Notes under the pieces: generated by a model
Told to the model about the DNA's origin: nothing
The model's database searches: none
Seen by the model: only the letters and a program-made list of their open reading frames with translations
Program-made: the position numbers and the translations under genes
Virus record (IMG/VR): IMGVR_UViG_3300025030_000067
Location: 1-64,000 of that record
Strand: one strand, 5' to 3'
From: a virus
Length of the DNA: 64,000 nt
Part shown: positions 6,489 through 60,065 of the stretch, piece after piece
Layout: the number at the start of each line of letters is the position of its first letter
Numbering within the stretch: the stretch's first letter is position 1

Positions 6489-7541
6489 TTAAAGTAGTGC
6501 CGGGACGCTGCCCTTTGAAAATATGAGCTGATTTAAAATTGACTCTACCGACCGCTTGCCGTCGCAATGCTTCATGTATCCCAGAAAGCTTGCGACTCTG
6601 ACCCGTATCTGCTCCAAGCTCATTAATCCTTCGCGGTAGAGTTCGACGAACTTCTTGAACCGTTTCCTGGCACCTTTCACTGTTCTGATGCGGGGCTTGG
6701 TGTAGTCCGGCCACATGCGGTATCCGCAGAAGTCGATCGGGTGGCATGTGCCGTTGCCGGATTTGAATATTGTGGTTTTGGGATTGAATGTCAGGTGCAG
6801 GCGTTCGGTGATGAAAACTTCAATGTCTGCATGCAGCTTTTTGAGGTAATCTTTGTCTGGATGAACCACAACAAAGTCGTCCATGTATCGGGCGTACATC
6901 TTTACGCCGAGATCGTCCTTGACGTAGTGGTCCAGTGCGTCCAGATAAATGTTGGCGAATAGCTGGCTGGTTAACGCTCCGATTGGTACTCCGCGCTTGT
7001 CGCCGTCGCAGTCTATTATCTGCCCTATCAGCCACAGTGTATCTTTATCGGATATCGTTCTTTTGATCAGTTCGAAGAGCACGTTTCTGTCGATGCTGGG
7101 GAAGTAGCCTTTGATATCTGCTTTCAGCACATAGTAATCGCCCCATTTTTTGTCGGCAGCGACGGCAAACGGTTCGACGCGCATCTTTGCTGCATGGGTT
7201 CCTTTGCCGGTGCGGCAGGCGAACGAATCCGGAATGAATCTCCGCTCGAAAAGCGGCTCTATGATTTGGACAAGGGCGTGGTGGACTACCCGGTCTTTAA
7301 ATGGTGGTGCGTGGATTGTTCTCTTCTTTGGTTCGTAAACGAAGAATTCACGATATCTTGATGGCTTCCATTGCTTCCACGTCAGCTGGTTTAGCGCATT
7401 AATAAGGTTCTCTTCCAGATTTTGCCCATAACGCAGGACCGAACCACGGAAGCGTTTTGCTCGTGAGGCTCCACGGAATGCTTCGTACATGTTCTCGAAG
7501 TTCACTATCTGGTCCCATATGTTGTTGTGGGTTACGGGCAT
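6489..7541 (-). CDS. DGR reverse transcriptase
   Basis: 350 residues. The RT core shows the catalytic Asp in VLKADIKGYFPSIDR (Asp142), the motif IGALTSQ at 187-193 with SQ where retroviral and group II enzymes have QG (a DGR hallmark), and YMDD at 219-222. There is no maturase or endonuclease domain; the C-terminus is the short thumb-like region usual in DGR enzymes. It copies template-repeat RNA into cDNA with errors at adenines, and the cDNA then replaces a variable repeat. The order target, avd, TR, RT is that of the Bordetella phage BPP-1 element. Confidence 0.96.
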   Translation of the reverse strand: MPVTHNNIWDQIVNFENMYEAFRGASRAKRFRGSVLRYGQNLEENLINALNQLTWKQWKPSRYREFFVYEPKKRTIHAPPFKDRVVHHALVQIIEPLFERRFIPDSFACRTGKGTHAAKMRVEPFAVAADKKWGDYYVLKADIKGYFPSIDRNVLFELIKRTISDKDTLWLIGQIIDCDGDKRGVPIGALTSQLFANIYLDALDHYVKDDLGVKMYARYMDDFVVVHPDKDYLKKLHADIEVFITERLHLTFNPKTTIFKSGNGTCHPIDFCGYRMWPDYTKPRIRTVKGARKRFKKFVELYREGLMSLEQIRVRVASFLGYMKHCDGKRSVESILNQLIFSKGSVPALL

Positions 7542-7711
7542 GCTATCCTCGGGGTTCTAAGTAGAAAAGCGGCCATGTTCTCTTGCGATACTTACCGCAA
7601 CTTTTCAGCTAAACATTGTTTGTGCCCACCACTGCGACACAGGAGTAAGGCTCCTTTTGCCTGTGCGCTGAAAGCTCTCCCATGGGAACGCTTTATCTAG
7701 CAACAGGCGAG
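7542..7711 (-). ncRNA. DGR RNA spacer between template repeat and RT
   Basis: About 170 bases with no convincing frame lie between the end of TR and the RT start. In BPP-1 the corresponding spacer is part of the DGR RNA, folds with the avd-TR segment and provides the cDNA priming site. The position and size match. The fold and priming base cannot be determined by eye. Confidence 0.6.
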
Positions 7712-7822
7712 AGCGGGACGGAAGCCGATGTTGCTGTTCACGTTGGAGCGCTGATTGTTCAAGTTCAAGGCAGCCAGGCCAGCATTCGAGGTGTTGTTCC
7801 AATTGCCACCCCGGATCGGCAG
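7712..7822 (-). repeat. DGR template repeat (TR)
   Basis: A non-coding copy of the 3' ends of the two target genes. Read on the minus strand it would encode the core RGGNWNNTSNAGLAAL and has many AAC/AAT codons at the varied positions. Compared with VR1 and VR2, all differences inside the core fall at template adenines: six in VR1 and ten in VR2. The GC-rich block GGCTTCCGTCCCGCT at the downstream end is shared with the VRs, and the sequences part right after it (CTCGCC in TR, TTTATAGG in both VRs), as expected for the IMH/IMH* boundary. Confidence 0.95.
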
Positions 7823-7830
7823 AGATAGCC

Positions 7831-8166
7831 TTACCCCTTTATTGATTTCACCCACCCACCGATCATCCTGCCAAGTTCGGCAAGATTTCCTCCCCACACT
7901 TCGTACTTCGCGAACGGCAGGAACTGCAGCTCCATCGCAAGGCGCACTTGAGTGCGGAGGATTTCAAGCTCGGTGTCTATTGCATATATCGTTTCTCTTT
8001 TATCTCTGCTCCGGTTCGCCCGGATGATCTGCTCGAGCAATCCGAACATGGTTCTTTTGATATCTTGTGCCAGCGAGAATTTCTCTGACTTCGGGAACTG
8101 CCGCAAGGCGATGTATCCGTACTTGATCATGTCTTCGCATTTTTGTTTGATCTTTAAGTTTTCCAA
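7831..8166 (-). CDS. avd: DGR accessory variability determinant (Avd)
   Basis: 111 residues, all-helical and basic, with the pattern of Avd/S23-type four-helix bundles (IKQKCEDMIKYGY, then ALRQFPKSEKFSLAQDIKR and a long helix with RQ/EI-rich stretches). Avd forms a pentameric barrel that binds the DGR reverse transcriptase and RNA and is needed for mutagenic retrohoming. It lies between target 1 and TR, the standard position. Its end is 9 bp from TR, so the avd tail may also be part of the DGR RNA, as in BPP-1. Confidence 0.9.
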   Translation of the reverse strand: MENLKIKQKCEDMIKYGYIALRQFPKSEKFSLAQDIKRTMFGLLEQIIRANRSRDKRETIYAIDTELEILRTQVRLAMELQFLPFAKYEVWGGNLAELGRMIGGWVKSIKG

Positions 8167-8183
8167 AGCCTTGCCCTTCGGGC

Positions 8184-8208
8184 AGCAGGGGCAGAAACCG
8201 CCCCTGCT
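8184..8208. promoter_or_regulatory. inverted repeat downstream of VR1
   Basis: AGCAGGGGC pairs with GCCCCTGCT (9 bp, 7-nt loop) about 46 bp past VR1 in the sense of the gene. An inverted repeat at this place is required for efficient target recognition in BPP-1, probably as a cruciform. A matching repeat follows VR2. Confidence 0.8.
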
Positions 8209-8254
8209 AACCCATCAGATACCCAGAGAGTCAGATTGCAGATTATCCTATAAA
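8209..8254 (-). repeat. shared initiation-of-homing flank, copy 1
   Basis: This stretch, which includes the end of target 1 and its stop codon, is identical except for one base to the same segment after VR2 (59055-59102). TR lacks it. With the GC-rich VR end and the inverted repeat it forms the site that marks a VR as recipient. Confidence 0.8.
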
Positions 8255-9307
8255 AGCGGGACGGAAGCCGAGGATGCTGGCCACGTAGGAGCGCTGATTG
8301 TTCAAGTACAAGGCAGCCAGGCCAGCATTCGAGGTGTTGTTCCAATTGCCACCCCGGAGCGGCAGGGCCTCGAACGATGGCGCGTTGGTGTTGTTGGCGT
8401 AAATCTGCCCGAGTACGCTACCCATGTTGGCTGCTGTGTCGTAAGGGGCAAGGAGTGCCTGCTTCATTTTGAGCGCAACGGCTGGAGTCGTGAGCCCTGT
8501 TGCCACGGTAGAGCTCCATGCTGCTTGGTTCAGTGACGGTCCACGGTTTACATCGGCTACTGCTGTTTCGGTCAGCACCAATGCCCCTGTGGCGGCGTTG
8601 GCTGTACCTGCTGTTGCGGATGCGATACGTGCCAGTGAGTCCGGCCAGCTGGCTTCTGCGAGGGTGTAGTTGTTGTCGGACGGCATCTTGATCACGCCGT
8701 CGACGAGTTTCATGCCATCCTGCCATTCCCATACATTGCCGACGAGATCAGAAATGCCGGTAAAGTCACCGGAGTGTCGCCACGATGCGGGACCGGAACC
8801 GGTAAGGGTGTGAGCGCTGCCGGACGCAGTGCCCGGCGCCAGGCCGTCAGTTCGGCGGCCTGTTTCAAATGGGCTTGCATGAGACTGACCATAATATGTG
8901 TTGCCTCGAACAAGCGGCAGACCGTTCTTGATACACCAGAGCGCGATAGCTGCCCACTCCCAGTTGGTCATCATGTGCCATCCGGCGCCTTTATTGGTGC
9001 AGGCGAGTTTGGCGTTGTCGAAGTTGATAGACACATACGGAGCCATGCCTGGCTGGGAAACCCCAAGACCGTTCATATTGACAGCGTTATATTGCCCAAG
9101 GAATATTTCGTTCTTCTCGACTCCGCCTACTATGAACGCTGGATGGACTCCGGTTCCGAGGTTGGCACTGATGTCCTCGCAACGGAACTTGGGAATAATT
9201 CGCATGTAGTTAGCGAAACCCTGGCTGTCATAAAGCACTGTACACTGGCCGCCTGTGGCCGCTTCAACCGACTGTCTTAACGCATCTTTGGTAATGATTG
9301 TTGGCAT
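8243..9307 (-). CDS. DGR target 1: C-type-lectin/FGE-fold variable protein
   Basis: 354 residues. The C-terminal part has the formylglycine-generating-enzyme-like C-type lectin fold used by many DGR targets: WHMMTNWEWAAIALW, a central LVGNVWEWQDG, and the final RGGNWNNTSNAGLAAL ... GFRPAFIG. The last about 37 residues are VR1. Varied residues cluster in the ligand-binding face (at template Asn codons there are Y, A, I and L). It is likely a receptor-binding tip protein, as it lies next to a tail fibre gene. A homologous second target is encoded at 59091-60065. AGGAGAGAGAACG precedes the ATG. Confidence 0.9.
   Translation of the reverse strand: MPTIITKDALRQSVEAATGGQCTVLYDSQGFANYMRIIPKFRCEDISANLGTGVHPAFIVGGVEKNEIFLGQYNAVNMNGLGVSQPGMAPYVSINFDNAKLACTNKGAGWHMMTNWEWAAIALWCIKNGLPLVRGNTYYGQSHASPFETGRRTDGLAPGTASGSAHTLTGSGPASWRHSGDFTGISDLVGNVWEWQDGMKLVDGVIKMPSDNNYTLAEASWPDSLARIASATAGTANAATGALVLTETAVADVNRGPSLNQAAWSSTVATGLTTPAVALKMKQALLAPYDTAANMGSVLGQIYANNTNAPSFEALPLRGGNWNNTSNAGLAALYLNNQRSYVASILGFRPAFIG
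8255..8365 (-). repeat. DGR variable repeat 1 (VR1)
   Basis: Aligns without gaps to TR. The six core differences are all at TR adenines (coding strand). They change template Asn codons to Tyr, Ala and other residues and Ile to Leu. One further difference near the upstream edge (CGATCC in TR, CGCTCC here) is also at an adenine. Confidence 0.95.
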
Positions 9308-13134: not shown

Positions 13135-13162
13135 ATATTATTCCTTGTGTAGCGTATGTCAA
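13135..13162 (-). promoter_or_regulatory. sigma70-like promoter built on the shared element
   Basis: On the minus strand: TTGACA, 16-bp spacer, TAATAT. The -35 box is part of the dispersed element (TTTGACATACGCTACA), extended upstream by CGGCAAAC. It faces the baseplate J and downstream tail genes. Confidence 0.7.
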
Positions 13163-17548: not shown

Positions 17549-17564
17549 TGTAGCGTATACCTAA
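17549..17564. promoter_or_regulatory. dispersed element copy (TGTAGCGTATACCTAA)
   Basis: A copy of the recurring element directly upstream of the ribosome binding site of the plus-strand gene at 17583. With the copy at 17478 it marks the divergent boundary between tail genes and the accessory island. Confidence 0.6.
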
Positions 17565-17582: not shown

Positions 17583-18167
17583 ATGAAAATGGTTAGTGAT
17601 GTAGTTAAAGTTCTGGAGGGTTTGGCCGTAGAGGACGCTCTGATTATTCTGGACAATGCAAAAAGCGTTGTCCAGAGCGCATCTGGCTTGGCGGTGTCTT
17701 TCGAGTGTAACCGCGAGATGTTCAAAACCAACTATCCCGAACAGGTACTCGCTGCAACTGTCGATTTTGACAAGGAAAGCCTGGAGGCATTCAAAGAACA
17801 AATCCTCAAGGAAGTTGGCGGTATGAAACTGCGCGAAACTCCAAACGGCATGTTATTTGATGCAATGATTAAGCTGGCAAAAGAGCAGAAAACTACTGAT
17901 TCCGCAGAACCCGCCAAGGCAGACGCACCGATAGCGGAGACTCAGCGCGACACGAAATGCATTGTGGCACCTAAATATGGGACGCAAGAATACCGTGACC
18001 GCGAGAATTACAAAAATTCTGTTGTGGTTGAGGTGTGCAACCTACTGTCGCAACGGAGTCTATCTGTTGCTGATGGGACGAGAGTTCTTGAGGTTGCTAT
18101 TGCTCATCTTGTTTTTTCGCCTGTTGCGCCTTTAGATCGGTTAAATGATGAATATAAGCCGCTCTGA
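17583..18167 (+). CDS. protein containing a fragment of the phage's own portal
   Basis: 194 residues from the ATG after GGGAGGTTTGTG. Residues about 40-105 are a near copy of a portal segment: NREMFKTNYPEQVL is identical, followed by DFDKESLEAFKEQIL (portal DYDKEGLAAFKQQIL) and VKLRESPKDMLF-like KLRETPNGMLF. About 23 portal residues between the last two parts are missing. Nucleotide identity is also high at NREMFKTNYPEQ, so it was captured from a portal gene. The N- and C-terminal parts are unrelated to the portal. It is followed by an antirepressor and a second structural-gene paralogue. It may act as a decoy that interferes with portal assembly. That role is inference. Confidence 0.75.
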   Translation: MKMVSDVVKVLEGLAVEDALIILDNAKSVVQSASGLAVSFECNREMFKTNYPEQVLAATVDFDKESLEAFKEQILKEVGGMKLRETPNGMLFDAMIKLAKEQKTTDSAEPAKADAPIAETQRDTKCIVAPKYGTQEYRDRENYKNSVVVEVCNLLSQRSLSVADGTRVLEVAIAHLVFSPVAPLDRLNDEYKPL

Positions 18168-18594: not shown

Positions 18595-19326
18595 ATGCAA
18601 AAACCCGCCTGTAGTCCCGTCCCGGCAGTATTCAGTTTTGAATCCCACGATGTACGAACAATTGTAGTTGGCGAAGAGGTCTGGTTTGTGGCCAGGGACG
18701 TTGCCGCTGTATTGGGCTATGCCAAACCGGAAAAAGCCATTTCATCACATTGTAAGCATGCCAAATCGTTAGCCTCCCCCGAATTGGGGGGGCAGGTTCC
18801 AGCCGGTTGGCCTCGGAATATGATGATCATCCCCGAGCGTGACGTCTACCGCCTGATTATGCGCTCCACTCTTCCCGCCGCCGAAAAGTTTGAAGACTGG
18901 ATTGTCTCCGAGGTCATCCCTTCCATCCGCAAGCACGGCCACTACGGCCAGCCGGTTGTTCTCCCTGCCGATCCGATGCAGATTCTCAAAGTTACTTATG
19001 ACGCCCTGGTGCAGGTGAATACCCGAGTGGACGAGGTACAGGAAACTGTTACCCGTTTGCTCGACACCGTCCGGCTCCAGCAATGGCAATGTTACGAACT
19101 GAAAGCCGCCGTCACGCAGAAGGCGCAGGAGTTCCGTGATACCTATAATTGCACTTATGCGTTGCTCTTTCCCGCCGTCTGGGGCTTTGTCAAAAAACAC
19201 TTCCGGGTTGCTACTTATTCCGCCATTCCGACTGTCCGTTTCGACGAGGCGCTTGCGCTTGTCAAGGCTATCACTTTTGGCGACATGCCCGACTATGTGC
19301 GCGAGAGCGCAGGGGGTGCCAAATGA
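18595..19326 (+). CDS. BRO-N antirepressor-like protein
   Basis: 243 residues. The N-terminal 110 residues are a BRO/Ant domain: VRTIVVGEEVWFVARDVAAVLGY followed by KAISSHCK, then MMIIPERDVYRLIMRS and ... AEKFEDWIVSEVIPSIRKHG, the usual end of the domain. A helical linker and a C-terminal domain of unknown type follow (about 150-243). BRO-N proteins bind DNA or repressors and act as antirepressors or phage-phage regulators. It is coupled by an ATGA overlap to the next gene. No cI-type repressor is visible nearby. Confidence 0.88.
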   Translation: MQKPACSPVPAVFSFESHDVRTIVVGEEVWFVARDVAAVLGYAKPEKAISSHCKHAKSLASPELGGQVPAGWPRNMMIIPERDVYRLIMRSTLPAAEKFEDWIVSEVIPSIRKHGHYGQPVVLPADPMQILKVTYDALVQVNTRVDEVQETVTRLLDTVRLQQWQCYELKAAVTQKAQEFRDTYNCTYALLFPAVWGFVKKHFRVATYSAIPTVRFDEALALVKAITFGDMPDYVRESAGGAK

Positions 19327-20357
19327 GAATCGAACCCACCCTCAACGAAAAAGTTTACTATCGCACTCCGGAGATGAACCGTAAAAAGAAAGGCTTCATC
19401 GTCGCCGGCAGTATCGAAACCGGCTTTGAAATTAAACCGGTGCGTGAAGGCTATACGCTCAACCCACCGAACATTAACGGAGTTTTCCGCGACAGCATCT
19501 GGACGGCAGCAGAACATGCCGCTGGCAGATTACCGAAAGGCACAGGACGGGGCGTGGCCGCAAAAGAAAGCAAGCGCAGGGGGCAGGTTGGCATGGAGCG
19601 CATCGGCGTGTCTGAGGCTGAAATCATGCGACACCCTGGCATTGTGAGTATCATGGGAAAAATATTGTCAGGTCTGGCAGCACGGAACGGATTTAATCCG
19701 CATTTCGTGCTTGCCGATGGCGTTATGCACAACGACGATCTTGCCGCGAATGAATTGTACAGCGAGTACGTCACGGCAGCTCTCGGGGCTCTGCGCACGT
19801 CCGGCAACAATGCCAGTGATGCCGACATCGAGCAGTTCAAAGCGTACTTGTCCGGTGCATCCCTTGAAAGCAACATCGCGCTTACGATTGCCCGTACCGG
19901 CAAGACCGCAGCCATGCGGCACCTGATCTCGGATAATGACCGGCTGAAAGCGTCCGTTTCCTACGATACCCAGGGTGAAGACGACTACGAGACCGGCATG
20001 CGAGCGATTGCGGCCAAGGTTGCCGTCAATCCAGAACGTGGCTCTGGCGCTGCCAAGCAGGAAGCCCTGACGTTCGGCATTGCGGAACAGCTGGAAGCTC
20101 TGGACGACACGGCGGCAGCGGTCATCATTAAAATGAAGTTCGGCCTGGAGCAGTTCGAGCATGCCTACAAGGAACAGGACATCGCAGCCGCTCTCAACCG
20201 GGCGAAGGTTCCGGCTCCGAATGGCTTGTGGGATGCGGTGAAGGTGAAGATCAAGATGTTGGCTGCGCTTGCGATTCTGGCGCATACCCGAGGGATGCAG
20301 AACCTGCGCGACTTCATAAGCGGTTGCGACTACTCTTTTGTTGGAGGTGCAGCATGA
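19323..20357 (+). CDS. paralogue of the N-terminal part of the giant head protein
   Basis: 344 residues starting at the ATG that overlaps the BRO stop. It aligns over nearly its whole length with residues about 70-400 of the giant minus-strand protein at 37742-42244: both have VYYRTPEMNRKKKG / IYYRTPEMNRKKRG, KPVREGYTLNPP, ARTGKTAAMRHLI, QGEDDYETGM and FGLEQFEHAYKEQDIAAALN (or close variants). The LRKS motif and the tag at the start of the giant protein are missing. The C-terminal part looks like a sigma-like helix-turn-helix (AYKEQDIAAALN). It may compete with the head protein. Role unknown. Confidence 0.8.
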   Translation: MRIEPTLNEKVYYRTPEMNRKKKGFIVAGSIETGFEIKPVREGYTLNPPNINGVFRDSIWTAAEHAAGRLPKGTGRGVAAKESKRRGQVGMERIGVSEAEIMRHPGIVSIMGKILSGLAARNGFNPHFVLADGVMHNDDLAANELYSEYVTAALGALRTSGNNASDADIEQFKAYLSGASLESNIALTIARTGKTAAMRHLISDNDRLKASVSYDTQGEDDYETGMRAIAAKVAVNPERGSGAAKQEALTFGIAEQLEALDDTAAAVIIKMKFGLEQFEHAYKEQDIAAALNRAKVPAPNGLWDAVKVKIKMLAALAILAHTRGMQNLRDFISGCDYSFVGGAA

Positions 20358-35500: not shown

Positions 35501-35821
35501 TTACGGTTTTCCACCATATCGCTTTTTGTCTTTAATCCTTCTGTTTGGTCGCTTGCTGGTCATGTACGGTCGCTCGACTGTCATGATCTTTGTCACATCC
35601 TCGTCCGTGACGAACCGCCAGTACTCAGCGACGAAGTATCGGGCTGGCGTAAACCCGTTCTTGATGGTTCTGATGGCTGCTCCGTAGCCAAGGTCTACCT
35701 CTTCTGCTGTAGCTATGAGGCGGTCAAGTTCGGTCCGGTAGCATGGCGGTGGTTCGCTTTCCCATCTCTTCAGGAAGCGCAGCCAGGCATGCCTGGTGAT
35801 TTCTGCTTTGCGTAGTGGCAT
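35501..35821 (-). CDS. hypothetical protein with nuclease/toxin-like helix
   Basis: 106 residues, basic. The start ITRHAWLRFLKRW resembles the BrnT/HicA-like H-A-x-x-R-F/L helix found in several small phage proteins, and KIMTVERPYMTSKRPNRR is a basic end. It overlaps its upstream neighbour by one base. Function not assigned. Confidence 0.5.
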   Translation of the reverse strand: MPLRKAEITRHAWLRFLKRWESEPPPCYRTELDRLIATAEEVDLGYGAAIRTIKNGFTPARYFVAEYWRFVTDEDVTKIMTVERPYMTSKRPNRRIKDKKRYGGKP

Positions 35822-36729
35822 TAGTAACGGATCCCGGCTCTAGCTTTGAGTAGGCCCATCTTCTTGACCTCTGCCATCTTGGAGTAGTAGTGCGGATCCT
35901 CGTCGAGATGTACCAATACGATTTTGGCGATCTTGGTCTCATCATGGTCCACAACGTCGGCATGCTCTTGCTCGTCGAACATGCCGTCACAGAATTCGTC
36001 CAGGTTGTACCGTTTCCAGTCAATGCCCATGCTGTCGCCCAACTGCTTACACATAGCTTCACCGGACTTTTTAAGTTCCTGCGGCATTCCTCGCCTTGCG
36101 GCAGCCAGCAGGTCTTCTGCCGTCAGAGGACGTCCGGCCTTCACCGATGCCTCGTCAATGGCTCGCTGGGCTCTGTCTCGGAGTTCGTCTTCTCTGAAAA
36201 GCCGTCCCGGACCTGTTTTGATGCCGTTGTCGGATTCTGTAGGCGGAATATACTGGTTCCCACTCTGCAACTTTTTACCCTTCATGCTGGTCAGTGCTTC
36301 TTTGAATTCACCGAACGGCCAGATACTCATGCTGCCAAAGAACCGTGGCTCGCTGTAGGATGCGTGGAAGGCCCGGACAGCTTCTCCAGGCGTGTTCAGG
36401 CCGACGAAACACTTGTCTTCGTCGTACTCAGTGAAATCCGGGGCTCTGGTTGTATGGACTACATAGACCTCGGAATTTGCGGAGGGATCTGGCCCAACAA
36501 AGACGTCTACTGCATCTCCGTCTGTGGCCAGCGTGCCTCTTATGTAACCGTATGGTAGCGACATTCTGCTCATGCCCTGGCTGCCGTCCTGCGGATTGTG
36601 CCATTCGCGACATCGGCTGCGTCCGGTCTCGATGCTGATCGGGAGACCATTGAAGTTGACCCTGCCATGGAGCTGGCGGGATTTGATCAGTGATGGTAGG
36701 TGCTTGATACTTTTTTTGTCTTCTATCAT
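35821..36729 (-). CDS. phage head-region protein with pyrophosphatase-like and DUF5661-like domains
   Basis: 302 residues. The first half has the pattern of the inorganic-pyrophosphatase-like domain seen in phage head clusters: LPYGYIRGTLATDGDAVDVF, VGPDP, DKCFVGLNTPGEAVRAF and SIWPFGEFKEAL. The second half has a helix-rich DUF5661-like domain (YNLDEFCDGMFDEQEHADVV, then VLVHLDEDPHYYSKM with KMAEVKK). An LIKS motif lies near residue 15. Such proteins are probably packaged in the head; the actual reaction is unknown. Confidence 0.6.
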   Translation of the reverse strand: MIEDKKSIKHLPSLIKSRQLHGRVNFNGLPISIETGRSRCREWHNPQDGSQGMSRMSLPYGYIRGTLATDGDAVDVFVGPDPSANSEVYVVHTTRAPDFTEYDEDKCFVGLNTPGEAVRAFHASYSEPRFFGSMSIWPFGEFKEALTSMKGKKLQSGNQYIPPTESDNGIKTGPGRLFREDELRDRAQRAIDEASVKAGRPLTAEDLLAAARRGMPQELKKSGEAMCKQLGDSMGIDWKRYNLDEFCDGMFDEQEHADVVDHDETKIAKIVLVHLDEDPHYYSKMAEVKKMGLLKARAGIRY

Positions 36730-37741: not shown

Positions 37742-40700
37742 CTATGCCTCCAACTGTTTAATGTGGCGTTCGAGCATGGCGCCGACTTCTGCCGAGCCTT
37801 GCTTGCCGAGCCGTTCATGACCTTTGTATTTAAGGATGTTTTTAGCTGTTTTGGCGTATTTTTCGGGGGTCGAATAATCCGGGTGGTCGGTGTTTATCCC
37901 CATGCCGCCGCGACCTTTTTTATCGTGCCGCTCGAATGCGTCGTGAAGTTCCTTGACCATCTCATGGTGAGGTTGCCCTTTTTGCGCGACATTCGCTGTT
38001 GCTCCGGATGCTGTGGTGCGAGTGTATGCAGCATGATCGGAGTGCTGTGACTTGCGTAAGATATGCGCTACAGAGAGGGCACAACTTTTCCTGACTGGCT
38101 CCTGTACTGTTTTGGGGCTTCCGTCGCCCTTTGGTCGTTTCGACTTGATCAGGTACATTTCACGTCTCCTTCCCTTAAATAACCTCACTTGCAGTAGTCC
38201 TGAGTGATCACCCGGGAGATGATCGGCCATGGGCTCTTTGTTTTCTTTGGCCGGCATGTTTTCTTCTTTCCATTTTTCCCAATGGGTGTGGGCTCCGTGG
38301 ACCTCTTCTTCTGCATCGAGTATCCGCTGCTTGGTGTGATCATCCAGTGTGCCCCAGTGGGGGAGGTGGGCGAACCGTTCCTGTCGCAGTTTATGGAGCT
38401 GGTGGCTGCTCTCGGTACGTGCCAGCTTGATTGCGTAACGCTTCACTCGGCTGTCTTCGTGGGCATCGATGTGTGCAAGTGCCCCGGATGCAGTCGTGCG
38501 GTCGTAGGCTGTGACGTGCGATTTCAGGAGCCGAACGGCTGCGGTTTCGCTGCTGACTCGTCCTTGCCTGCCTGCTCTCGTTTGTTCTTGGGTTTCTTCT
38601 TTTTGGACTTTGCAGCTGCAGCTTTCTTCTTGTCCGCAACATCCATTGTGTCCGCATCCGCAAGAGCTTTTTTCAAGAGTTCCGACTTCTTCTTGTACTT
38701 TTCCTCGTCGCTTAATTCCGCCATTGCTTCCTCCGTGCGATTTTATCAGGTGTGTTAAGGCTGGCCGCTGTAATGACTTTTTCACACCATCATCGGAACT
38801 ATTCACCTTGTCAAGAGCCTGCTTTACGACCTGCTCTTTGTTCTTTGGCTCCGCTGGTCCCGAGAACATGTCCACCTCGGGGTTTTCCCGGCTGGCAACC
38901 TCGTTTTTGATGCCGTTGCTGATGGCTCGGAAGACGTTTTCCAACCTGTTGCGAGATCCGGCTCGGTCGCTGATCGCCAGTATCATGTCAACGGAGTGAT
39001 CAGTTTTGAACTTCGGGGTGTCTCCGGTGAAGTCCAGCGAGCCAGCGTTTTTAAGAGTGTGCTCCAGCTCTGCCTTACTCTGGTTCTGGTGTGCCAGTGT
39101 GTACTCGATCGCTTCCATCATGTCCGGCACCACGTCCAGGTCGTCATGGCCTTTGATCTGGGCGAAGTCGCCGACGCACCCGTTCAGCGCCTTGAGTATG
39201 TTCCTGATCTTCGGCTTGGCGCTCTCGGCTTGCAGCTCGGTCAGCATGGAGCTGCCGTATACTTTCGTGAAGACCGCGTTCTGGATCCGCTCGATGCATT
39301 TCTTGTTCGGGTCGCCGTCAGCATCGCGCAGGCCGGCTGATTCGTTCTTGCCCAGCTTGTCGAGGAATCCATTGATGAAGTCCATATTTTCGTCGTTGTA
39401 GATTTCACCGTCTTCGTCGACCGCGAACTTCTTGAGCAGGCTGTCGTCGATTCTGGCCGAGTCATTCCATGCCTGTTCTGCTGGCGAAGAGCCGAGGTTG
39501 CCGGTGTCGTTGGCTTCTCTGGCAAACTCTGCCCGGTCGGTATTTTTGTCGTCATCGCTGCGGACTCTGACCAGTACCGGGTTTTTCATCTTCTCGACAT
39601 CTTCCGGCTTTATGCCGAACGTGTCCGCTTCGCCTTTCAGCCATTCCTTGTAGTGATCCGCCAGTCCGCGCTTGTACGCTTCCGTCAGGGCGATGGTGCG
39701 ACCATTGCCGCTTTCGACAGCTCCATCCTTGCCGACGATTGGAGCGCCATGAGCAGCCATTGAACCGGCACCGAAAAGTTCCGGCTTGATATCGTTCATC
39801 ATGTTTGCCATTTGCATCTGGCTCGATAGGCGTTCCCGTTCTCGGGGCTGTATCTCTTGAGGGTAAGCTCTGTTGATATGTCCCTGGATGGTGTGGGAGG
39901 TCGTCAAGTCGTCGGATTCCACCAGCGCATACTTACTGCTGACCTCGTTCATCTTGGCCGTGTAGGCTTTGTTCTCTTTGCCCATGACGAACTTAGGCTC
40001 TTTCTTGCCGGTGTCCACGCTCTGGACTTCCTTCTTGCCCTGGAGGCTGGATATCTGCTCTTTGTCCTTGCTCGGGTCGCCACCGGCGAAGTGTACCGTG
40101 TGGCCGTCGCTATCCTTCGACATGATTATGGAGTGGCCGTCTTTCTCGTATTTCGTCGCGGTGCTGTCGCGATCGACCTGGTGACCGTAGTGCTTCAACA
40201 GCTTCTCGCGGTAGTCGTCAATGGCCGCCGTGTAGGTGTTGCTCCGGCTGGTGTTTATGTTCTTGAGTACTGAGACTGGGTCGTCGCTGGCTGCTGCGGC
40301 TTCGCGCATCTTCTTCATGCCGCGTTCGGCTGTCTGTAGAGCTCCGTTCTCCCGGTTCTTCGCCTTGATCTCTTCATGCTCCGGCATGTCTTCTTTTTTG
40401 CCGCCCTTGTGCCCTTCGATTGGCTTCACCTGATGGACTTCGCGCTCTTTCCAGCCTCGGCTCTTGAGGTGTTCGGCCAGCTGATCGCCGTGTTTCAGTT
40501 TGGCTCCCGAGTGTATCTCTTCTCCATGCTCATTTTGGTGCTTGAGCACGTCCTGGTGCTTCTTGACACGTTTGTCGTCGTGCTCTTGCACTACCGAGCC
40601 GTCCTGCCTGGTATATTGCTTTACGTGGGACTTGATCAGCATGGACCGATCCATGAGATTGTCGGCTCTCAGGCTCTTGGTGAATATGTCGATATCCATC

Positions 40701-42244
40701 AGCGCCTGTTCCCAATTATTGAACCGGATGGCCCGGTCGTCGAGATACACGTCCGCGATTGGCTTTCCGTCGTTGCTGTCTTCTGGTTGATCGGTTTTTT
40801 TGTTGATCTCGTCATATGGGATGTCGTTAAATCCGAGATAGCCTCGCAGTGCCGGTGTTTCCTGCCGAGTGGTGAAAATGATGATTTTCCATCCCGCTTG
40901 CTTAAGTGCCTGCATGGCTGCCGAGACTTGCGGCAACGGTTCTCCGAACGTCTCGGCCCCTTGCCATCCCTGCGAGTAATCGGCAATTACTCCGTCGAAG
41001 TCCACACAGATGGTCTTCTGGTGGATGCTTGCCGACTTTCTGAGCGTGGTCTCTTCCCGCAGGCTTTTGAGGAAGCCGAGCAGCTCCTTGGCTCCCTTGG
41101 TCCTGGCTAGTCGTACCAGCGCCGTTTGCATATGCGACTTGACCGCCGCTGCGTCCCATCTGTCTACTGCTTCTGATCGAACACCTGTCCGGTTGAGCGC
41201 TGCCGCGATATCCTGTTCTTTGTATCCGTGGTCGAACCGACCAAGGCCGAATTTCATTTTGATTATGGCGGATGCAATCGGGTCGTCGAGTGCGTCCAGC
41301 TGCTCTGCGATACCGTTTGCGAGTCCTTCTTGTTTAGCTGCGTTCGATTCGTTGGCTGGTCCTACTGCGGCTTTTGCTGCGATATCGCGCATGCCTGTTT
41401 CGTAATCGTCTTCACCCTGGGTGTCGTATGACTGTTCTTCCTTCAGTCGGTCGTTGTTGGTGATCAGGTGGCGCATGGCCGCCGTCTTGCCGGTACGGGC
41501 TATCGTTTTGGCGACGTTGCTCTCTGATGCGGTGCCGGCCAGATAATTCTTGAACTCCTGTATGTCGGCATCGCTGGCGTTGGTTCCGGATGTTCTCAGG
41601 GCTCCGATCGCCGCCGTGATGTATTCGCTGTACAGTTCGTTCGCTGCCGGGTCATCGTTGTGGAGCACTCCGTTGGCGACAACGTAGTTCGGGTTATATC
41701 CGTTTCTGCTGGCCAGGTGTTTGAGCGTCCCTTTCATTCTGTCAACTATGGCCGGGTGCTGCAATATCTCCGCCTCTGGCATGCCAATGCGTTCCATCCC
41801 GACCAGCGCCCTGCGTGTGCTTTCCTCTGCCGTCACACGGCCACCTGTGCCCTTTGGTGCTTTCTCCGCCGTATGCTCTTCTTCTGTCCAGATGTGGTCT
41901 CGGCTAATATCTTTTATATGCGGAGGGTTTAGTGTGTATCCTTCGCGTACTGGTTTAACTTCGTATCCGGTCTCGTGGCTGCCACCGACGATATGTCCGC
42001 GCTTTTTGCGGTTCATCTCCGGGGTGCGGTAGTAGATCTTTTCGCCATGTTTCGGCTCGGAGCTTTCTTTGCCTCGTACCTTCACCTTGCGTTGGTGTTC
42101 TGCGACTTGTGCGATGGCCCCTGACGCGAGGTGTCGTGTGCCTGCGTGTACCGTATGGACTTCTTCATGCTTGGGCGGCTGGTAGTCGAACAGGCTCATT
42201 TGTGATTTTCTGAGGTAGAAGAATTGCGTGATGTGTTTGATCAT
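37742..42244 (-). CDS. giant multidomain head/internal protein (polyprotein-like)
   Basis: 1500 residues from the ATG after GGAGGCAAGG. In order: LRKSQMSLFDY and a tag-like HLASGA; a domain of about 330 residues shared with the plus-strand gene at 19323; a HAD-like phosphatase with DFDGVIADY (about 420-530); a second tag (HVKQYTRQDGSVV); a helical region; a ParB/DdrB-like domain with ESGNGRTIALTEAYKRG (about 790-1000), related to the injected antirestriction proteins of P1; a Cys-rich knot (SSCGCGHNGCCG); two more RTTASGA tags, one at LLKSHVTAYD and one at ILRKSQHSD. About ten L-x-K-S sites separate the parts. It is probably cut by the prohead protease into injected proteins. Confidence 0.75.
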   Translation of the reverse strand: MIKHITQFFYLRKSQMSLFDYQPPKHEEVHTVHAGTRHLASGAIAQVAEHQRKVKVRGKESSEPKHGEKIYYRTPEMNRKKRGHIVGGSHETGYEVKPVREGYTLNPPHIKDISRDHIWTEEEHTAEKAPKGTGGRVTAEESTRRALVGMERIGMPEAEILQHPAIVDRMKGTLKHLASRNGYNPNYVVANGVLHNDDPAANELYSEYITAAIGALRTSGTNASDADIQEFKNYLAGTASESNVAKTIARTGKTAAMRHLITNNDRLKEEQSYDTQGEDDYETGMRDIAAKAAVGPANESNAAKQEGLANGIAEQLDALDDPIASAIIKMKFGLGRFDHGYKEQDIAAALNRTGVRSEAVDRWDAAAVKSHMQTALVRLARTKGAKELLGFLKSLREETTLRKSASIHQKTICVDFDGVIADYSQGWQGAETFGEPLPQVSAAMQALKQAGWKIIIFTTRQETPALRGYLGFNDIPYDEINKKTDQPEDSNDGKPIADVYLDDRAIRFNNWEQALMDIDIFTKSLRADNLMDRSMLIKSHVKQYTRQDGSVVQEHDDKRVKKHQDVLKHQNEHGEEIHSGAKLKHGDQLAEHLKSRGWKEREVHQVKPIEGHKGGKKEDMPEHEEIKAKNRENGALQTAERGMKKMREAAAASDDPVSVLKNINTSRSNTYTAAIDDYREKLLKHYGHQVDRDSTATKYEKDGHSIIMSKDSDGHTVHFAGGDPSKDKEQISSLQGKKEVQSVDTGKKEPKFVMGKENKAYTAKMNEVSSKYALVESDDLTTSHTIQGHINRAYPQEIQPRERERLSSQMQMANMMNDIKPELFGAGSMAAHGAPIVGKDGAVESGNGRTIALTEAYKRGLADHYKEWLKGEADTFGIKPEDVEKMKNPVLVRVRSDDDKNTDRAEFAREANDTGNLGSSPAEQAWNDSARIDDSLLKKFAVDEDGEIYNDENMDFINGFLDKLGKNESAGLRDADGDPNKKCIERIQNAVFTKVYGSSMLTELQAESAKPKIRNILKALNGCVGDFAQIKGHDDLDVVPDMMEAIEYTLAHQNQSKAELEHTLKNAGSLDFTGDTPKFKTDHSVDMILAISDRAGSRNRLENVFRAISNGIKNEVASRENPEVDMFSGPAEPKNKEQVVKQALDKVNSSDDGVKKSLQRPALTHLIKSHGGSNGGIKRRGKVQEEVGTLEKSSCGCGHNGCCGQEESCSCKVQKEETQEQTRAGRQGRVSSETAAVRLLKSHVTAYDRTTASGALAHIDAHEDSRVKRYAIKLARTESSHQLHKLRQERFAHLPHWGTLDDHTKQRILDAEEEVHGAHTHWEKWKEENMPAKENKEPMADHLPGDHSGLLQVRLFKGRRREMYLIKSKRPKGDGSPKTVQEPVRKSCALSVAHILRKSQHSDHAAYTRTTASGATANVAQKGQPHHEMVKELHDAFERHDKKGRGGMGINTDHPDYSTPEKYAKTAKNILKYKGHERLGKQGSAEVGAMLERHIKQLEA

Positions 42245-42272
42245 CCTTGCCTCCACTGTGGTCGTAGCAATA

Positions 42273-51665: not shown

Positions 51666-53399
51666 TCAGTCGAGTGTGATCTTGAGGAACTTCGTCTCGG
51701 GCTGTGACTTCCGCATTGACTTGTAATACTGGTCACTGTCGCCGCCCTGTTGATCGTCTCCCTGGTCTTCGTCCTGATCCGGTTCTTCTTCTGCCTGTTG
51801 CTGCTGTGCGAATGTGTTCAGGTAGTTCGGGATCGGCACGTCTGCAGGGTAATTCCATGGGTTCTTGTCGTACTTCTCTTTGTTCTCGTCGCCCTCCTGG
51901 AGCTTGCTGTACTGCTCTGGCGGCAGGTAGAATCCGATGGGGGCTCCGCCTTCTTCCATGCGACATTCGTTCTTGGTGATCCATTTGGAGACTCGGCTGG
52001 TGCGGATATCGACCGCCTGTTTCTCGTCTTCCGGGTTCAGGCCAACAACTATCAGCTTGAGGTCGTCATATCTAGGTTTAATGAGTGCGTCGGTGAGCCA
52101 TTCCGCCATGTCGGTGATGGAAGGGATGAGTCCGTGTTCTTTCGAGAACTCAATTTCTCCGGAGGCATTACCGGCAAAGATGCTACCGCCGCCTGCGCCA
52201 CTGTCGGTCTCCATGTTCAGTGTGCTGGGGTGGGCTCCGTAGGCCGAGCATTTGAACATGACCATCATCCTGATCATCTGGTCGAACAGCATGTCCTTTG
52301 GAGACTCGCGGAGCTTCACGCTTTCGATCTTGAAGTTCTCCATGTCGCCGGCAGGGATTACCGGCAGGCGCCAGTTGTTGCCGACTCCACCAGCCTCGCC
52401 AAGTATCTGCTGCTTGAACGCGGCCAAGCCTTCTTTGTCGTAGTCGCCGGAGACCGTCAGCACCTGCTCGGGATAGTTGGTCTTGAACATCTCGCGGTTG
52501 TATGTGAATGCCATGAGCAGGCTGGTGGTGATGTCCAGTGACTCTTCCAAGCGGGATGTACCGTATCCCCATCGGTTGAGCCGGTCGCTCGGGTTACTGA
52601 TGTGGACGCTGATTTCGTCGTCGGTGAATGCAGCTGTGATCATACCGTCGATCATCTGGACATAGCTGGCACGGGCGAGGTCAAACCCGGTGGAGTACGA
52701 CATCTTGTTTATCGTGTCTCGGCCTACCTTGCCGTTGCTCTCGTTCTTTTGAGCCCATGCCCGAATTGACTCATCCACGTTCTTGATCGTCTCTCCTGGC
52801 AGCCAGTGGAATGCTGCGTAGCCTTGGCCGTCTCGGCGTTTGTATCGGAGGATGCATTTGCGGTCGATGATCAGCTCCGTGCGGGTCAGAACGCCGACGA
52901 GGTCTTTCAATCGGGTATGTGGCCGGACGTTGTGCGGGTAGAGGTAGATGTGTTCGGTGGGCGTCGGGTCGCTGATGAATTTCTCCATCTCGTGGCAGCG
53001 TTCTTTATCCTGTCTGGTGACCTTGTAGTCGGGATCATCTGCGCGGTCGTGAACAACTCTGAATCCAATCTCCTTGTTCTTGCCCTCATTGGCCTTCTGC
53101 CAGATGCGTTTCTGCTGGTCGGTCCGGGCTCTGATCAGGATGCGGTCGAGGGTGGATTTTTCTGCGGCTTCGTACAGGATGGAAAACTGCGGGGTGCCTA
53201 TTGGCTTTTCTCGGGCTCCCATTACTATTGAGTTGTTTAATGCGAATTTGGAGAAGAAAGACGCTTTATTTTCGTCTCTTCGCATTTTATTAGCTTCTGA
53301 TTTTATCAGGTCGTCCGCTGAATGTTTTGGCACCAATAATCCTGATGAAAGTTGCACTGACTCTTCAAACACTCTGTTCAGGAATAATTTGTTATGCAT
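51666..53399 (-). CDS. portal protein
   Basis: 577 residues. Portal features: an early part with FSILYEAAEKSTLDRILIRA, a stem/wing part with DGQGYAAFHWLPGETIKNVD, YVQMIDGMITAAFTDDEISV, the segment NREMFKTNYPEQVL (copied in the plus-strand gene at 17583), and a clip/crown part with MLFDQMIRMMVMF. The C-terminus is acidic and Gln-rich (QGDDQQGGDSDQ) with a last MRKS site. It forms the 12-fold ring for DNA packaging. The HNH gene overlaps its start by 8 bp. Confidence 0.85.
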   Translation of the reverse strand: MHNKLFLNRVFEESVQLSSGLLVPKHSADDLIKSEANKMRRDENKASFFSKFALNNSIVMGAREKPIGTPQFSILYEAAEKSTLDRILIRARTDQQKRIWQKANEGKNKEIGFRVVHDRADDPDYKVTRQDKERCHEMEKFISDPTPTEHIYLYPHNVRPHTRLKDLVGVLTRTELIIDRKCILRYKRRDGQGYAAFHWLPGETIKNVDESIRAWAQKNESNGKVGRDTINKMSYSTGFDLARASYVQMIDGMITAAFTDDEISVHISNPSDRLNRWGYGTSRLEESLDITTSLLMAFTYNREMFKTNYPEQVLTVSGDYDKEGLAAFKQQILGEAGGVGNNWRLPVIPAGDMENFKIESVKLRESPKDMLFDQMIRMMVMFKCSAYGAHPSTLNMETDSGAGGGSIFAGNASGEIEFSKEHGLIPSITDMAEWLTDALIKPRYDDLKLIVVGLNPEDEKQAVDIRTSRVSKWITKNECRMEEGGAPIGFYLPPEQYSKLQEGDENKEKYDKNPWNYPADVPIPNYLNTFAQQQQAEEEPDQDEDQGDDQQGGDSDQYYKSMRKSQPETKFLKITLD

Positions 53400-53868
53400 T
53401 GGCCGTCTCCTGATAATTCTTCCAAGACTGGTTGTTTAATATTTTAGCGGTCTGAGCGATTGATAGTCCGTATCTCTGGCCGATTGATTTATATGTTCCG
53501 GTTTTCCCGTTTCGTCGCATTTCCTGCACTTGCTTGAGTGTTACCTTTGCTTCGTTGTGACGTTCTCCGTCTGGTTGACGCCGCTTCTTGGTCCTGTCTG
53601 CTACGTTTTCTATGTTTGTTCCGACGAACAGGTGGTCGGGTCGGATGCATCTGGGGTTGTCGCATTTATGCAGGACTTGCAATCCTTCTGGTATCGGGCC
53701 GTTGTGCATCTCCCAAGAGAATCGGTGCGCTTTCCCCATTTTCCCGTGGTGGTGAAAGAACCCGTATCCGTCTTTATCTCTTGCTGCCTGCCACTCCCAG
53801 CACTCTTTGCTCTTGTCTACTTTCTCCCAGAAGTTTTCTTCCGGCGTTCTGACTGGCCATCTTGGCAT
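53392..53868 (-). CDS. HNH endonuclease with NUMOD-type helix
   Basis: 158 residues. ECWEWQAARDKDGYGFF and KAHRFSWEMHNGPIPEGLQV lead to an HNH_3 core: LHKCDNPRCIRPDHLFVGTN. The C-terminal part has VTLKQVQEMRRNGKTG ... IGQRYGLSIAQTAKILN, a helix-turn-helix of homing endonucleases. It abuts the portal and is not fused to the neighbouring IS110-like protein. Probably an independent homing gene. Confidence 0.88.
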   Translation of the reverse strand: MPRWPVRTPEENFWEKVDKSKECWEWQAARDKDGYGFFHHHGKMGKAHRFSWEMHNGPIPEGLQVLHKCDNPRCIRPDHLFVGTNIENVADRTKKRRQPDGERHNEAKVTLKQVQEMRRNGKTGTYKSIGQRYGLSIAQTAKILNNQSWKNYQETANA

Positions 53869-53944
53869 TTCACATCTCCGTGTGCGTCCCGATTATTCTC
53901 TGTGCCCAGGACGGTCGGAGTTCCGTCTTTTCTCCCGCTAAAGA

Positions 53945-54001
53945 TAGGGCACAGCATGTCTTGTTAGACAATACTGTGCCCTAATTTGTAGCGTATATCA
54001 A
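53945..54001. promoter_or_regulatory. element copy with 10-bp inverted repeat
   Basis: TAGGGCACAG pairs with CTGTGCCCTA (53945-53983). Next to it is a copy of the element with the extended CGGCAAAC part (53986-54013). No good -10 box at 16-17 bp is seen. It lies upstream of the HNH-portal run and may combine termination and restart. Confidence 0.5.
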
Positions 54002-54016
54002 ACTGTTTGCCGCTGG

Positions 54017-54259
54017 TTAGCCTTTAACCATATACAGAGTTTTACCTCTTATAATTGCAAGAAGTTCTGCATCTGTCTTCTCTTGGACCGGTCCATATAC
54101 CGTCTCTGCAACACCGTGAATCCAATTAAGGAGCTTCTCTGCATCCGCGATCACGTCATCGCTATTTATCCCTCGTCCATGGCTGTCCGCACTTTCCAAT
54201 ATTTCTTTACTCATCTTCAAACACGTTAATCTTAATTTTCGTTGGTTCATTGGTTTCAT
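54017..54259 (-). CDS. small helical protein
   Basis: 80 residues; the likely real start is the MSKEILESADSHGRGINSDD or the upstream ATG. A helix-rich protein with DDVIADAEKLLNWIHGVAET, resembling small phage proteins of unknown function. It lies next to the left repeat array. Confidence 0.55.
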   Translation of the reverse strand: MKPMNQRKLRLTCLKMSKEILESADSHGRGINSDDVIADAEKLLNWIHGVAETVYGPVQEKTDAELLAIIRGKTLYMVKG

Positions 54260-54297
54260 CTCCCTTTTGGGTTTAATGTTTGGGCGCTTTGTAGATC

Positions 54298-54405
54298 TGG
54301 TTTTCTAATTATGCTTGGCACGCTTCCTTGTATTGGTGTTCTTATGTGGAGTGGCTCGCTACGTCAACGTGGTTTTCTTTTGCACCTTGGCTATGCTGCT
54401 TGCTT
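54298..54405. repeat. TIGR-like array, left part (3 units)
   Basis: Three 36-nt units in exact phase (54298, 54334, 54370), each TGGTTTTCT-N9-TGGCWCGCT-N9 on the plus strand, with a degenerate half unit before (GGGCGCT near 54281). The last overlaps the 3' end of the IS110/Nop-like gene, whose stop codon lies inside it. The consensus is that of the larger array at 55440. Confidence 0.8.
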
Positions 54406-55398
54406 CTCCCCGCCATGGACGTATCCCAGCTTCGCCTCGTGGTAGGGTAGCGACACCGGCAGACCCTCAATGGTCCTCCAAGCTGTGTAGAGGTCGATCA
54501 GGAACATCTTGACCATGTAGCGCATCGCGGCGTTGTGTCGGTGCCCCTTCTCGCTCACGGTTTTCTCTTTGCCCTTGTCGTTGGTTTCGGTTCGGTCCTT
54601 CCAGTTGGTGTGATTTTCCAGACGGTTCTTGTAGTCGTCATATATCGTCCGGTATTTGCTCTCACCGGCTCTCAGGAAGCTGCTGGCGAGCACTCCCATC
54701 AGTTTTGTTTTGAGGAATGGGTTGAATGTGATTCCGTTCCTGATCGCTGAGTTACCTTCTTTGTCGATATACGCTACAGTCTGGAGATGCTCTTTCCTTC
54801 GTGATCGGCCTTTGCCATCATCTGCGCAGTCGAGTCCTGCATACTTCCAGATGCTGCTCGGGTGTCTGGACTTGGTGATGTCGATCTCGCTGATGATCAC
54901 TCCTGCCATGGCTGGGCCTATGCCTCTGACGCCTTCGAGGAATTCGACGTATATCGGGTAATCTTCGAGTATCTTGCCGAGCATCCGGAAGTGCCGGTTC
55001 TCTTGGGATTCGAGGTCTTTGTATTGCGATATCAGGCAGAGCTCCGTGTAGTCACTGATCACTGGATTTCCCTTGAATTTCTTTTTGCTGGGCAGGCCGT
55101 CTGCCGTCAGTAGTGAGTAGTGTTTATCGAGCAGTTGGGACACAAGCCCTGCGATCTTCTTTTCTTCTTTTTCCGTCTGTTCCAGCTCCGCGACTGCTCC
55201 GGTGGTGACCAGTTTGTTGGCATTCCGTATCCGTGCCAGCAGTTGCTGCGATTCGGCGTCGAGTCCTTCTTCTGGTTCGCTTGGTGCCTGGCCGAGTTTG
55301 GCCTTGAAGTTGCCGACTATCCTGTTTCCGGTTTGGATGCGGAGCTTCTGGATGTCGTAGCTCCCTCTTACGATGGTTTTCAGATTTCCTGCTGACAT
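54391..55398 (-). CDS. IS110/Nop-like protein, probable Tas protein of a TIGR system
   Basis: 335 residues with GGAGGCATC before the ATG. A basic start, a long coiled coil (about 45-145), then a Transposase_20/Nop-like domain: FLEGVRGIGPAMAGVIISEI (153-172, helix-hairpin-helix like), SSIWKYAGLD, then KEGNSAIRNGI. The last helix is YMVKMFLIDLYTAWRT. The RuvC-like DEDD domain of IS110 transposases is missing, and no HNH is attached. Tas proteins of TIGR systems combine a Nop/IS110-type RNA-binding domain with optional RuvC or HNH nucleases; this would be a nuclease-less one. The two 36-nt arrays beside it support this. No transposon ends are visible. Confidence 0.8.
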   Translation of the reverse strand: MSAGNLKTIVRGSYDIQKLRIQTGNRIVGNFKAKLGQAPSEPEEGLDAESQQLLARIRNANKLVTTGAVAELEQTEKEEKKIAGLVSQLLDKHYSLLTADGLPSKKKFKGNPVISDYTELCLISQYKDLESQENRHFRMLGKILEDYPIYVEFLEGVRGIGPAMAGVIISEIDITKSRHPSSIWKYAGLDCADDGKGRSRRKEHLQTVAYIDKEGNSAIRNGITFNPFLKTKLMGVLASSFLRAGESKYRTIYDDYKNRLENHTNWKDRTETNDKGKEKTVSEKGHRHNAAMRYMVKMFLIDLYTAWRTIEGLPVSLPYHEAKLGYVHGGEKQAA

Positions 55399-59054: not shown

Positions 59055-59102
59055 CTAACCCATCAGATAACCAGAGAGTCAGATTGCAGATTATCCTATA
59101 AA
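59055..59102 (-). repeat. shared initiation-of-homing flank, copy 2
   Basis: One mismatch with 8209-8254 (…GATAACC… here, GATACCC there). It contains the stop codon of target 2 and continues into the inverted repeat. Confidence 0.8.
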
Positions 59103-60065
59103 AGCGGGACGGAAGCCGACGTAGCTGTACACGTTGGAGCGCTGATTGATCAAGCTCAAGGCAGCCAGGCCAGCATTCGAGGAGTAGCTCCAACCGCCAC
59201 CCCGGAGCGGCATGGCCTCGAAGTTTTCGGTGTTATCGGCCCATACGTGGCCTGGTATGCCGAGGCTGCCGTCGCAGGGACACAGCAGCGCCTGGTAGAT
59301 GGATGCCGGGAGGGGTTGATCTGCCTTGGCGGTGATTTCGGCGAATGGCGTGCTCAACCAGTCTCTGTCGGTGATCTTGTTGGAGATCTCAATGTCGCTC
59401 TTTCCGTTGATGACTGCACCGGTTTCCGCCCATGCTGATTCTTTGGCTGTGAATTCGTTGTTTCTCGGCATGATGATCTTGCCACTGGCCAGCTTCAGTC
59501 CGTCCACCCATTCCCAGACGTTGCCCACCAGATCGGCAATCCCGTGCATTGTGCCATCGTGGCGCCATGTATCCGGTCCTGATCCGGTCAGGGTCTTGCC
59601 GCCGTCGCCCGATGGCATGCCGGACTCTTCTTCATTCTTGTGCGACTTGCCATAATCGGTGTTGCCGTGCGCGTCTCCGTATCCGTTTTTTGCCATCCAG
59701 AGTGCGACTGCTGCCCACTCCCAGTTGGTGAGCATGTGGAAGCCTGGGCCAGCGGCTATGCAGGCCGCTCGTGCGTTGTCGAAGTTGATGCCGGTTTTAG
59801 GGGTCTGGTAGGGGAGTGAGATCGCTTGGCCGTTGCTGATGATGGCCTGGTAGGTGCCGATGTGGATCTCGCTCTTTTCGACGCCGTTGACGATGAAGGC
59901 CGGGTGCAGTCCAGTTCCCATGCTTTCGCTGATGTCCTCGCACTTGAACGCTGGTATCACGTTGAAGTATGACGGGTAGCCCTTGGTGGTCCGCCTGACG
60001 GTTTGCTTGCCCTCTGATGCTCTTTCTACCTGTTCCCTCAGTGAATCCTTGATGATGATGTTCAT
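59091..60065 (-). CDS. DGR target 2: C-type-lectin/FGE-fold variable protein
   Basis: 324 residues, homologous over its length to target 1 (8243-9307): both have CEDIS, LHPAFIVNGVEK / VHPAFIVGGVEK, INFDNA, H-M-x-TNWEWAA and DLVGNVWEW. The C-terminal part is VR2 (LRGGGWSYSSNAGLAALSL ... GFRPAFIG). It is not next to any fibre gene, 51 kb from the DGR core. It is likely another receptor-binding or surface protein. GGAGGTTTACAT precedes the ATG. Confidence 0.9.
   Translation of the reverse strand: MNIIIKDSLREQVERASEGKQTVRRTTKGYPSYFNVIPAFKCEDISESMGTGLHPAFIVNGVEKSEIHIGTYQAIISNGQAISLPYQTPKTGINFDNARAACIAAGPGFHMLTNWEWAAVALWMAKNGYGDAHGNTDYGKSHKNEEESGMPSGDGGKTLTGSGPDTWRHDGTMHGIADLVGNVWEWVDGLKLASGKIIMPRNNEFTAKESAWAETGAVINGKSDIEISNKITDRDWLSTPFAEITAKADQPLPASIYQALLCPCDGSLGIPGHVWADNTENFEAMPLRGGGWSYSSNAGLAALSLINQRSNVYSYVGFRPAFIG
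59103..59212 (-). repeat. DGR variable repeat 2 (VR2, remote)
   Basis: Aligns without gaps to TR. Ten core differences, every one at a TR adenine of the coding strand. They change the NWNN part to GWSY and other template Asn codons to Ser, Ile and Tyr. All non-adenine positions are identical to TR from GGCTTCCGTCCCGCT to CCGGGGTGGC. Confidence 0.95.

Follow-up and report, generated by a model that had tools for sequence, protein, structure and literature searches.

A phage accessory gene containing an old segment of the phage's own portal protein, a candidate decoy for portal partners

We describe here a small accessory gene of a virus which contains a piece of the portal protein encoded by the same virus. 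The window that we have analysed comprises bases 1–64,000 of a 90,534-base IMG/VR record (IMGVR_UViG_3300025030_000067). The features discussed below are collected in Table 1. Judging from the sequences compared, the portal piece is real and old. The gene is not itself a portal: it holds a partial segment, placed between new N- and C-terminal parts. The open reading frame is probably a working gene and a role of its product as a decoy for portal partners is plausible, since the piece derives from the clip region. The reading that we prefer, only tentatively, is that of a working accessory gene of a temperate phage in which an old copy of the clip region would act as a clip decoy or adaptor outside the portal ring.

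The similarity with the portal is found in protein and in DNA. Pairwise BLASTP aligns amino acids 33–98 of the gene (66 residues) with approximately residues 291–378 of the phage's own portal: 41 of 87 positions are identical, with a gap of 22 residues (E 3e-20). Within the window the DNA of both genes has 66 identical positions out of 86 (E 6e-13). The stretch NREMFKTNYPEQVL is identical in gene and portal, and after the gap there is a second portal-like piece (KLRETPNGMLFDAMIKL / KLRESPKDMLFDQMIRM); the pieces on either side of the gap are both recovered by tblastn in the record and its relatives. The original prediction that the gene holds a piece of the phage's own portal is thus confirmed; the gap which it described is also present, with 22 residues instead of about 23. 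The pattern MFKTNYPE, searched in IMG/VR as degenerate DNA, is found in 19 stretches: 18 of them are portals of the same family and the other one is the copy of the gene in a relative. We reject chance or a general motif as the source of the likeness, given this distribution and the E values. Alignment, pattern search and the tree presented below agree in a common descent of the shared segment with portals. Only about one ninth of the portal is present in the gene: wing and crown are absent and the clip strands are missing. The portal profile PF04860 matches the phage's own portal and not this gene, which has no match in Pfam or PHROGs, nor among the PADLOC defence profiles. The AlphaFold model of its product is unusable (pLDDT 39).

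Table 1. Position of the features discussed, numbered from the first base of the window
Feature	Position	Strand	Remarks
Accessory gene with portal-derived segment, 194 aa	17583–18167	+	ORF, alternative GTG start possible at 17580
aa 33–80, portal-like part 1 (end of pre-clip helix, NREMFKTNYPEQVL, clip helix)	17679–17822	+	
aa 81–98, portal-like part 2 (MKLRETPNGMLFDAMIKL)	17823–17876	+	
aa 99–194, linker and C-terminal region, without known relatives	17877–18167	+	
Motif copy TAGGTATACGCTAC (consensus TTGATATACGCTAC)	17550–17563	-	About 20 nt upstream of the portal-piece gene
Small convergent ORF, 56 aa	18097–18267	-	Overlaps 3' end of the portal-piece gene
Antirepressor (Bro-N + ORF6C)	18595–19326	+	
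Stand-alone sigma-like protein	19323–20357	+	67% over 330 aa to polyvalent-protein domain 41069–42058
N-terminal sigma-like domain of 1504-aa polyvalent protein (37742–42256)	41069–42058	-	Source of the island copy
Own portal gene, 577 aa	51666–53399	-	PF04860 at 3e-9, phrog_12 at 4e-22
Portal segment homologous to gene aa 33–80	52386–52529	-	
22 portal residues (VGNNWRLPVIPAGDMENFKIES) missing from the gene	52320–52385	-	
Portal segment homologous to gene aa 81–98	52266–52319	-	

Only one solved structure is matched by a profile of the family portals: the portal of Staphylococcus phage 812 (8q7d; E 2e-19 and 2e-24). By alignment the shared region corresponds to about residues 268–352 of this protein. 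In the 812 portal Lys334 is found in the clip and residues 375–392 form the tunnel loop (PMC12886913). The segment homologous to the region shared with our gene contains this lysine and precedes the loop; from these positions the region takes in the end of the pre-clip helix, the clip itself and the beginning of the post-clip helix. The names of the helices around the clip are those which we take to be general for HK97-type portals. The 22 absent residues are the stretch after the clip helix, ending beside Lys334 in the 812 alignment, and the clip helix is retained. Terminase and tail machinery dock on the clip. In the model of the immune sensor SpbK bound to the portal YonE the contact is made by the clip helix (PMC12847820): the N-terminal domain of SpbK touches it, with mutant support, and clustering requires the dodecameric clip ring. 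The phage's own portal is too distant from YonE for an alignment by sequence, and the clip cannot be placed in that way.

The only other copy of the gene known is 94% identical and is found in a related phage (IMGVR_UViG_3300002220_000607, L004 or G001), at the same place within a 93% identical tail region. A search of 50,697 phage records and IMG/VR gives no other relative, either of the whole gene or of its C-terminal half; in the phage records the gene has no match at E up to 1. We have built a tree on the 66 shared residues with the two gene copies and the family portals. Both copies join the clade of the window's own portal, as expected from the portal derivation originally proposed; the support for separating this group from the remaining portals is modest (79%). 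The branch of the gene copies is very long (0.46 changes per site) and the portals of their own clade are identical in the same stretch. Compared with the own portal, the gene segment has a dN of 0.22 and almost saturated silent sites; the age of the piece is uncertain because just 12 four-fold sites are usable. A 95% DNA identity in the first 38 nt had suggested a recent gene conversion from the portal. We have rejected it, since this stretch is conserved in its codons and silent sites elsewhere are near saturation: the 42-nt core, a window of 14 codons, ranks 5th of 514 for codon conservation across family portals, so that its high DNA identity needs no recent exchange.

In one relative (IMGVR_UViG_3300037384_000118, positions 6705–9563 of L053) the portal is interrupted between GYGT and SRLEES by an intein which contains a LAGLIDADG domain; this position is immediately upstream of the stretch which the portal-piece gene has copied. 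In the window (53392–55398, minus strand) the portal start is overlapped by an HNH endonuclease gene, with an IS110-like transposase gene (PF02371) nearby; both are in a stretch missing from relative G003. A link of the portal piece to the intein of relative G007 or to the portal-adjacent HNH gene was considered and rejected: the intein precedes the homologous segment by about 11 residues and we see no mechanism.

The locus of the gene is accessory. It is found within the tail operon, on the strand opposite to the tail and portal genes, and it adjoins the antirepressor, both as had been noted originally. The overlap with the small convergent ORF is limited to the last 70 nt or so; this ORF is 100% identical in G001 and absent from relative L058 (IMGVR_UViG_3300046710_000341). 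L058 has the antirepressor and the sigma-like copy, and other ORFs replace the portal-piece gene and the convergent ORF. These are unrelated small ORFs (L058:2960–3500). In relative G004 the locus has the antirepressor (52%), without the portal-piece gene and without the sigma-like copy. Therefore the antirepressor is the most widely shared element, followed by the sigma-like copy, and the portal-piece gene behaves as an exchangeable cassette. The presence of the same antirepressor locus without the gene in related phages bears out the accessory island that had been proposed.

The sigma-like gene is translationally coupled to the antirepressor by an ATGA overlap. A ddrB-like ParB domain, as is typical of polyvalent proteins, is found in the 1504-aa protein from which it derives. 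The island copy has dN/dS values of 0.12–0.16, which indicate purifying selection. Its AlphaFold model has a pLDDT of 66, and the best Foldseek matches are sigma-70-family chains, which are weak (E 0.009 and higher); its product is a candidate phage sigma factor. Since this copy of a domain neighbours the portal-piece gene, the locus appears to recruit parts of the phage's own large proteins. The polyvalent proteins of Iyer et al. 2017 (cited in PMC7824862) resemble this neighbour, a detached domain of the phage's own polyvalent protein, and not the portal-piece gene.

The gene has a ribosome site rated good (GGGAGG, 7 nt 5' of the ATG), and a copy of a recurrent 14-nt motif is found upstream. 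Its consensus is TTGATATACGCTAC. A search of the window for TAGGTATACGCTAC, allowing up to 3 mismatches, gives 19 occurrences, while 1.9 are expected; none of 100 shuffles reaches this number. Copies are found, for example, at 13149, 17472, 17550, 24621, 27917, 42288 and 53988. Most of them lie 14–36 nt upstream of genes, in both orientations, and the motif is also present in G004. The copy before the portal-piece gene matches in position and orientation those before several other genes; at the L058 locus the motif has an inverted orientation. It is probably a phage operator (stoperator-like) or a promoter element, and the sigma-like protein might recognise it.

Two further features of the window are worth describing. 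A diversity-generating retroelement occupies 6489–9307 and 59091–60065 on the minus strand, with a reverse transcriptase (RVT_1, 6489–7541) and a template repeat at 7712–7821. Its two variable repeats lie within FGE-sulfatase/lectin-like genes, of which one is 50 kb distant, and all their differences (7 and 11) fall on template adenines. In the head-gene region a gene at 35821–36729 (minus strand) has inorganic-pyrophosphatase-like (PF18823) and DUF5661 domains.

Substitutions were counted between the window and L004 copies, thus on two copies only and with few silent sites. Amino acids 1–80 have 12.5 amino acid and 3.5 silent changes, with dN/dS about 1. Amino acids 81–194 (114 codons) have no amino acid change and 3 silent changes; without selection about 10 amino acid changes would be expected (p 5e-5). 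The two halves differ significantly in amino acid changes (Fisher p 2e-5) and not in silent changes (p 0.43). The C-terminal part is therefore under selection; in the N half constraint may be relaxed, or the sequence may be diversifying. These C-terminal counts, the ribosome site and the upstream motif at its usual distance are the reasons to consider the ORF a probable working gene. It would otherwise be a decaying portal fragment caught by chance in a reading frame, as the lack of relatives outside its own lineage and the poor AlphaFold model might suggest; with the ORF intact in two phages, the unchanged C-terminal part and both upstream signals, we consider this very improbable. In the portal-like segment 7 of the 28 portal-invariant residues are lost and 3 of the 6 recent changes are at such positions, so that portal-like binding may have been lost.

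In the reading that we prefer, the stretch surrounding the clip in the lineage's own portal was copied long ago, minus the clip strands, and placed between the new terminal parts, as the sequence shows. The product would stay out of the portal ring and present the clip helix to a protein which docks on the clip (large terminase, neck adaptor or host portal sensor), acting as a decoy or adaptor, while the conserved C-terminal part would supply a second function or partner. The portal homology, the grouping with the own clade, the clip position, the retained helix, the gene-like selection and the upstream motif are counted in its favour; the low pLDDT, the lost invariant residues, the dN/dS of the first 80 amino acids and the existence of two copies only are counted against it. 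Almost equally likely, and about as good an explanation of the relaxed N half, is an unrelated function on a portal-derived scaffold: the piece would be raw material brought by illegitimate recombination into a small helical protein, in which the conserved C-terminal part functions, probably in regulation, and the portal part drifts. The different rates of both halves agree with it, as do the regulatory nature of the locus and its exchange of cassettes, and the long branch next to portals which are identical in the stretch. Furthermore the recent changes do not avoid portal-invariant sites, with invariance defined from portals alone. However the core NREMFKTNYPEQVL and amino acids 60–71 and 81–98 are unchanged between the two copies, and amino acids 33–81 share 61% of their residues with the portal in spite of silent sites near saturation, measured on few sites.

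The original prediction proposed, beside a decoy, a dominant-negative protein, which would join the portal ring and block or re-time head assembly, limiting copy number or excluding relatives. A piece from the own-clade portal could indeed meet its cognate portal, but 66 residues without wing or crown, with the clip strands deleted, with invariant residues lost and with no match to the Pfam portal profile, lack most ring-building parts; this proposal does not stand up well and we find it very doubtful. Among the decoys, one that would occupy, and not trigger, a host portal sensor (an SpbK-like TIR NADase or similar) is attractive because SpbK needs the clip ring in order to cluster (PMC12847820): a clip helix without ring could bind it without clustering. 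The fast change of the N half would fit an arms race, but it fits a loss of constraint equally well; the own portal cannot be aligned to YonE and the known inhibitor Nip acts otherwise, by binding the TIR domain (PMC11984713). Such counter-defence is rather improbable. A search for the host with the own portal against genome contigs gave no match. The wider idea of self-mimicry, a detached copy of the clip helix as a decoy which either blinds a host portal-sensing immune protein or blocks packaging in competing relatives, is unlikely on present sequence evidence.

Portals are triggers of bacterial immunity and a docking hub for packaging. A detached, fast-changing piece of a phage's own portal would readily allow a test of self-mimicry, either in counter-defence or in the competition between relatives. 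Its closest likeness is with phage portals themselves (PF04860, HK97-type; 8q7d), since amino acids 33–98 are homologous to the surroundings of the clip. CpmB and Rcm of SaPI, TcaP of PLE and Sid of P4 are reportedly satellite proteins which interfere with capsids. The comparison with them holds only as an analogy, a small protein that might act on head assembly (PMC6893505, PMC12409344, PMC10945586). It fails in that the gene is portal-derived and belongs to a phage which has head and tail genes itself: a portal, tail genes, a repressor and an integrase are all present in the record, whereas a satellite has no head genes of its own. Nip of phi3T, an inhibitor of the portal-sensing SpbK, has two SH3-like domains and an HU-like domain and is not portal-derived (PMC11984713); for such domains our gene has no Pfam or PHROGs match and its AlphaFold model is of no use. 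Like the portal-piece gene, Nip is encoded by a phage accessory gene, and portal-triggered immunity would be their common theme.
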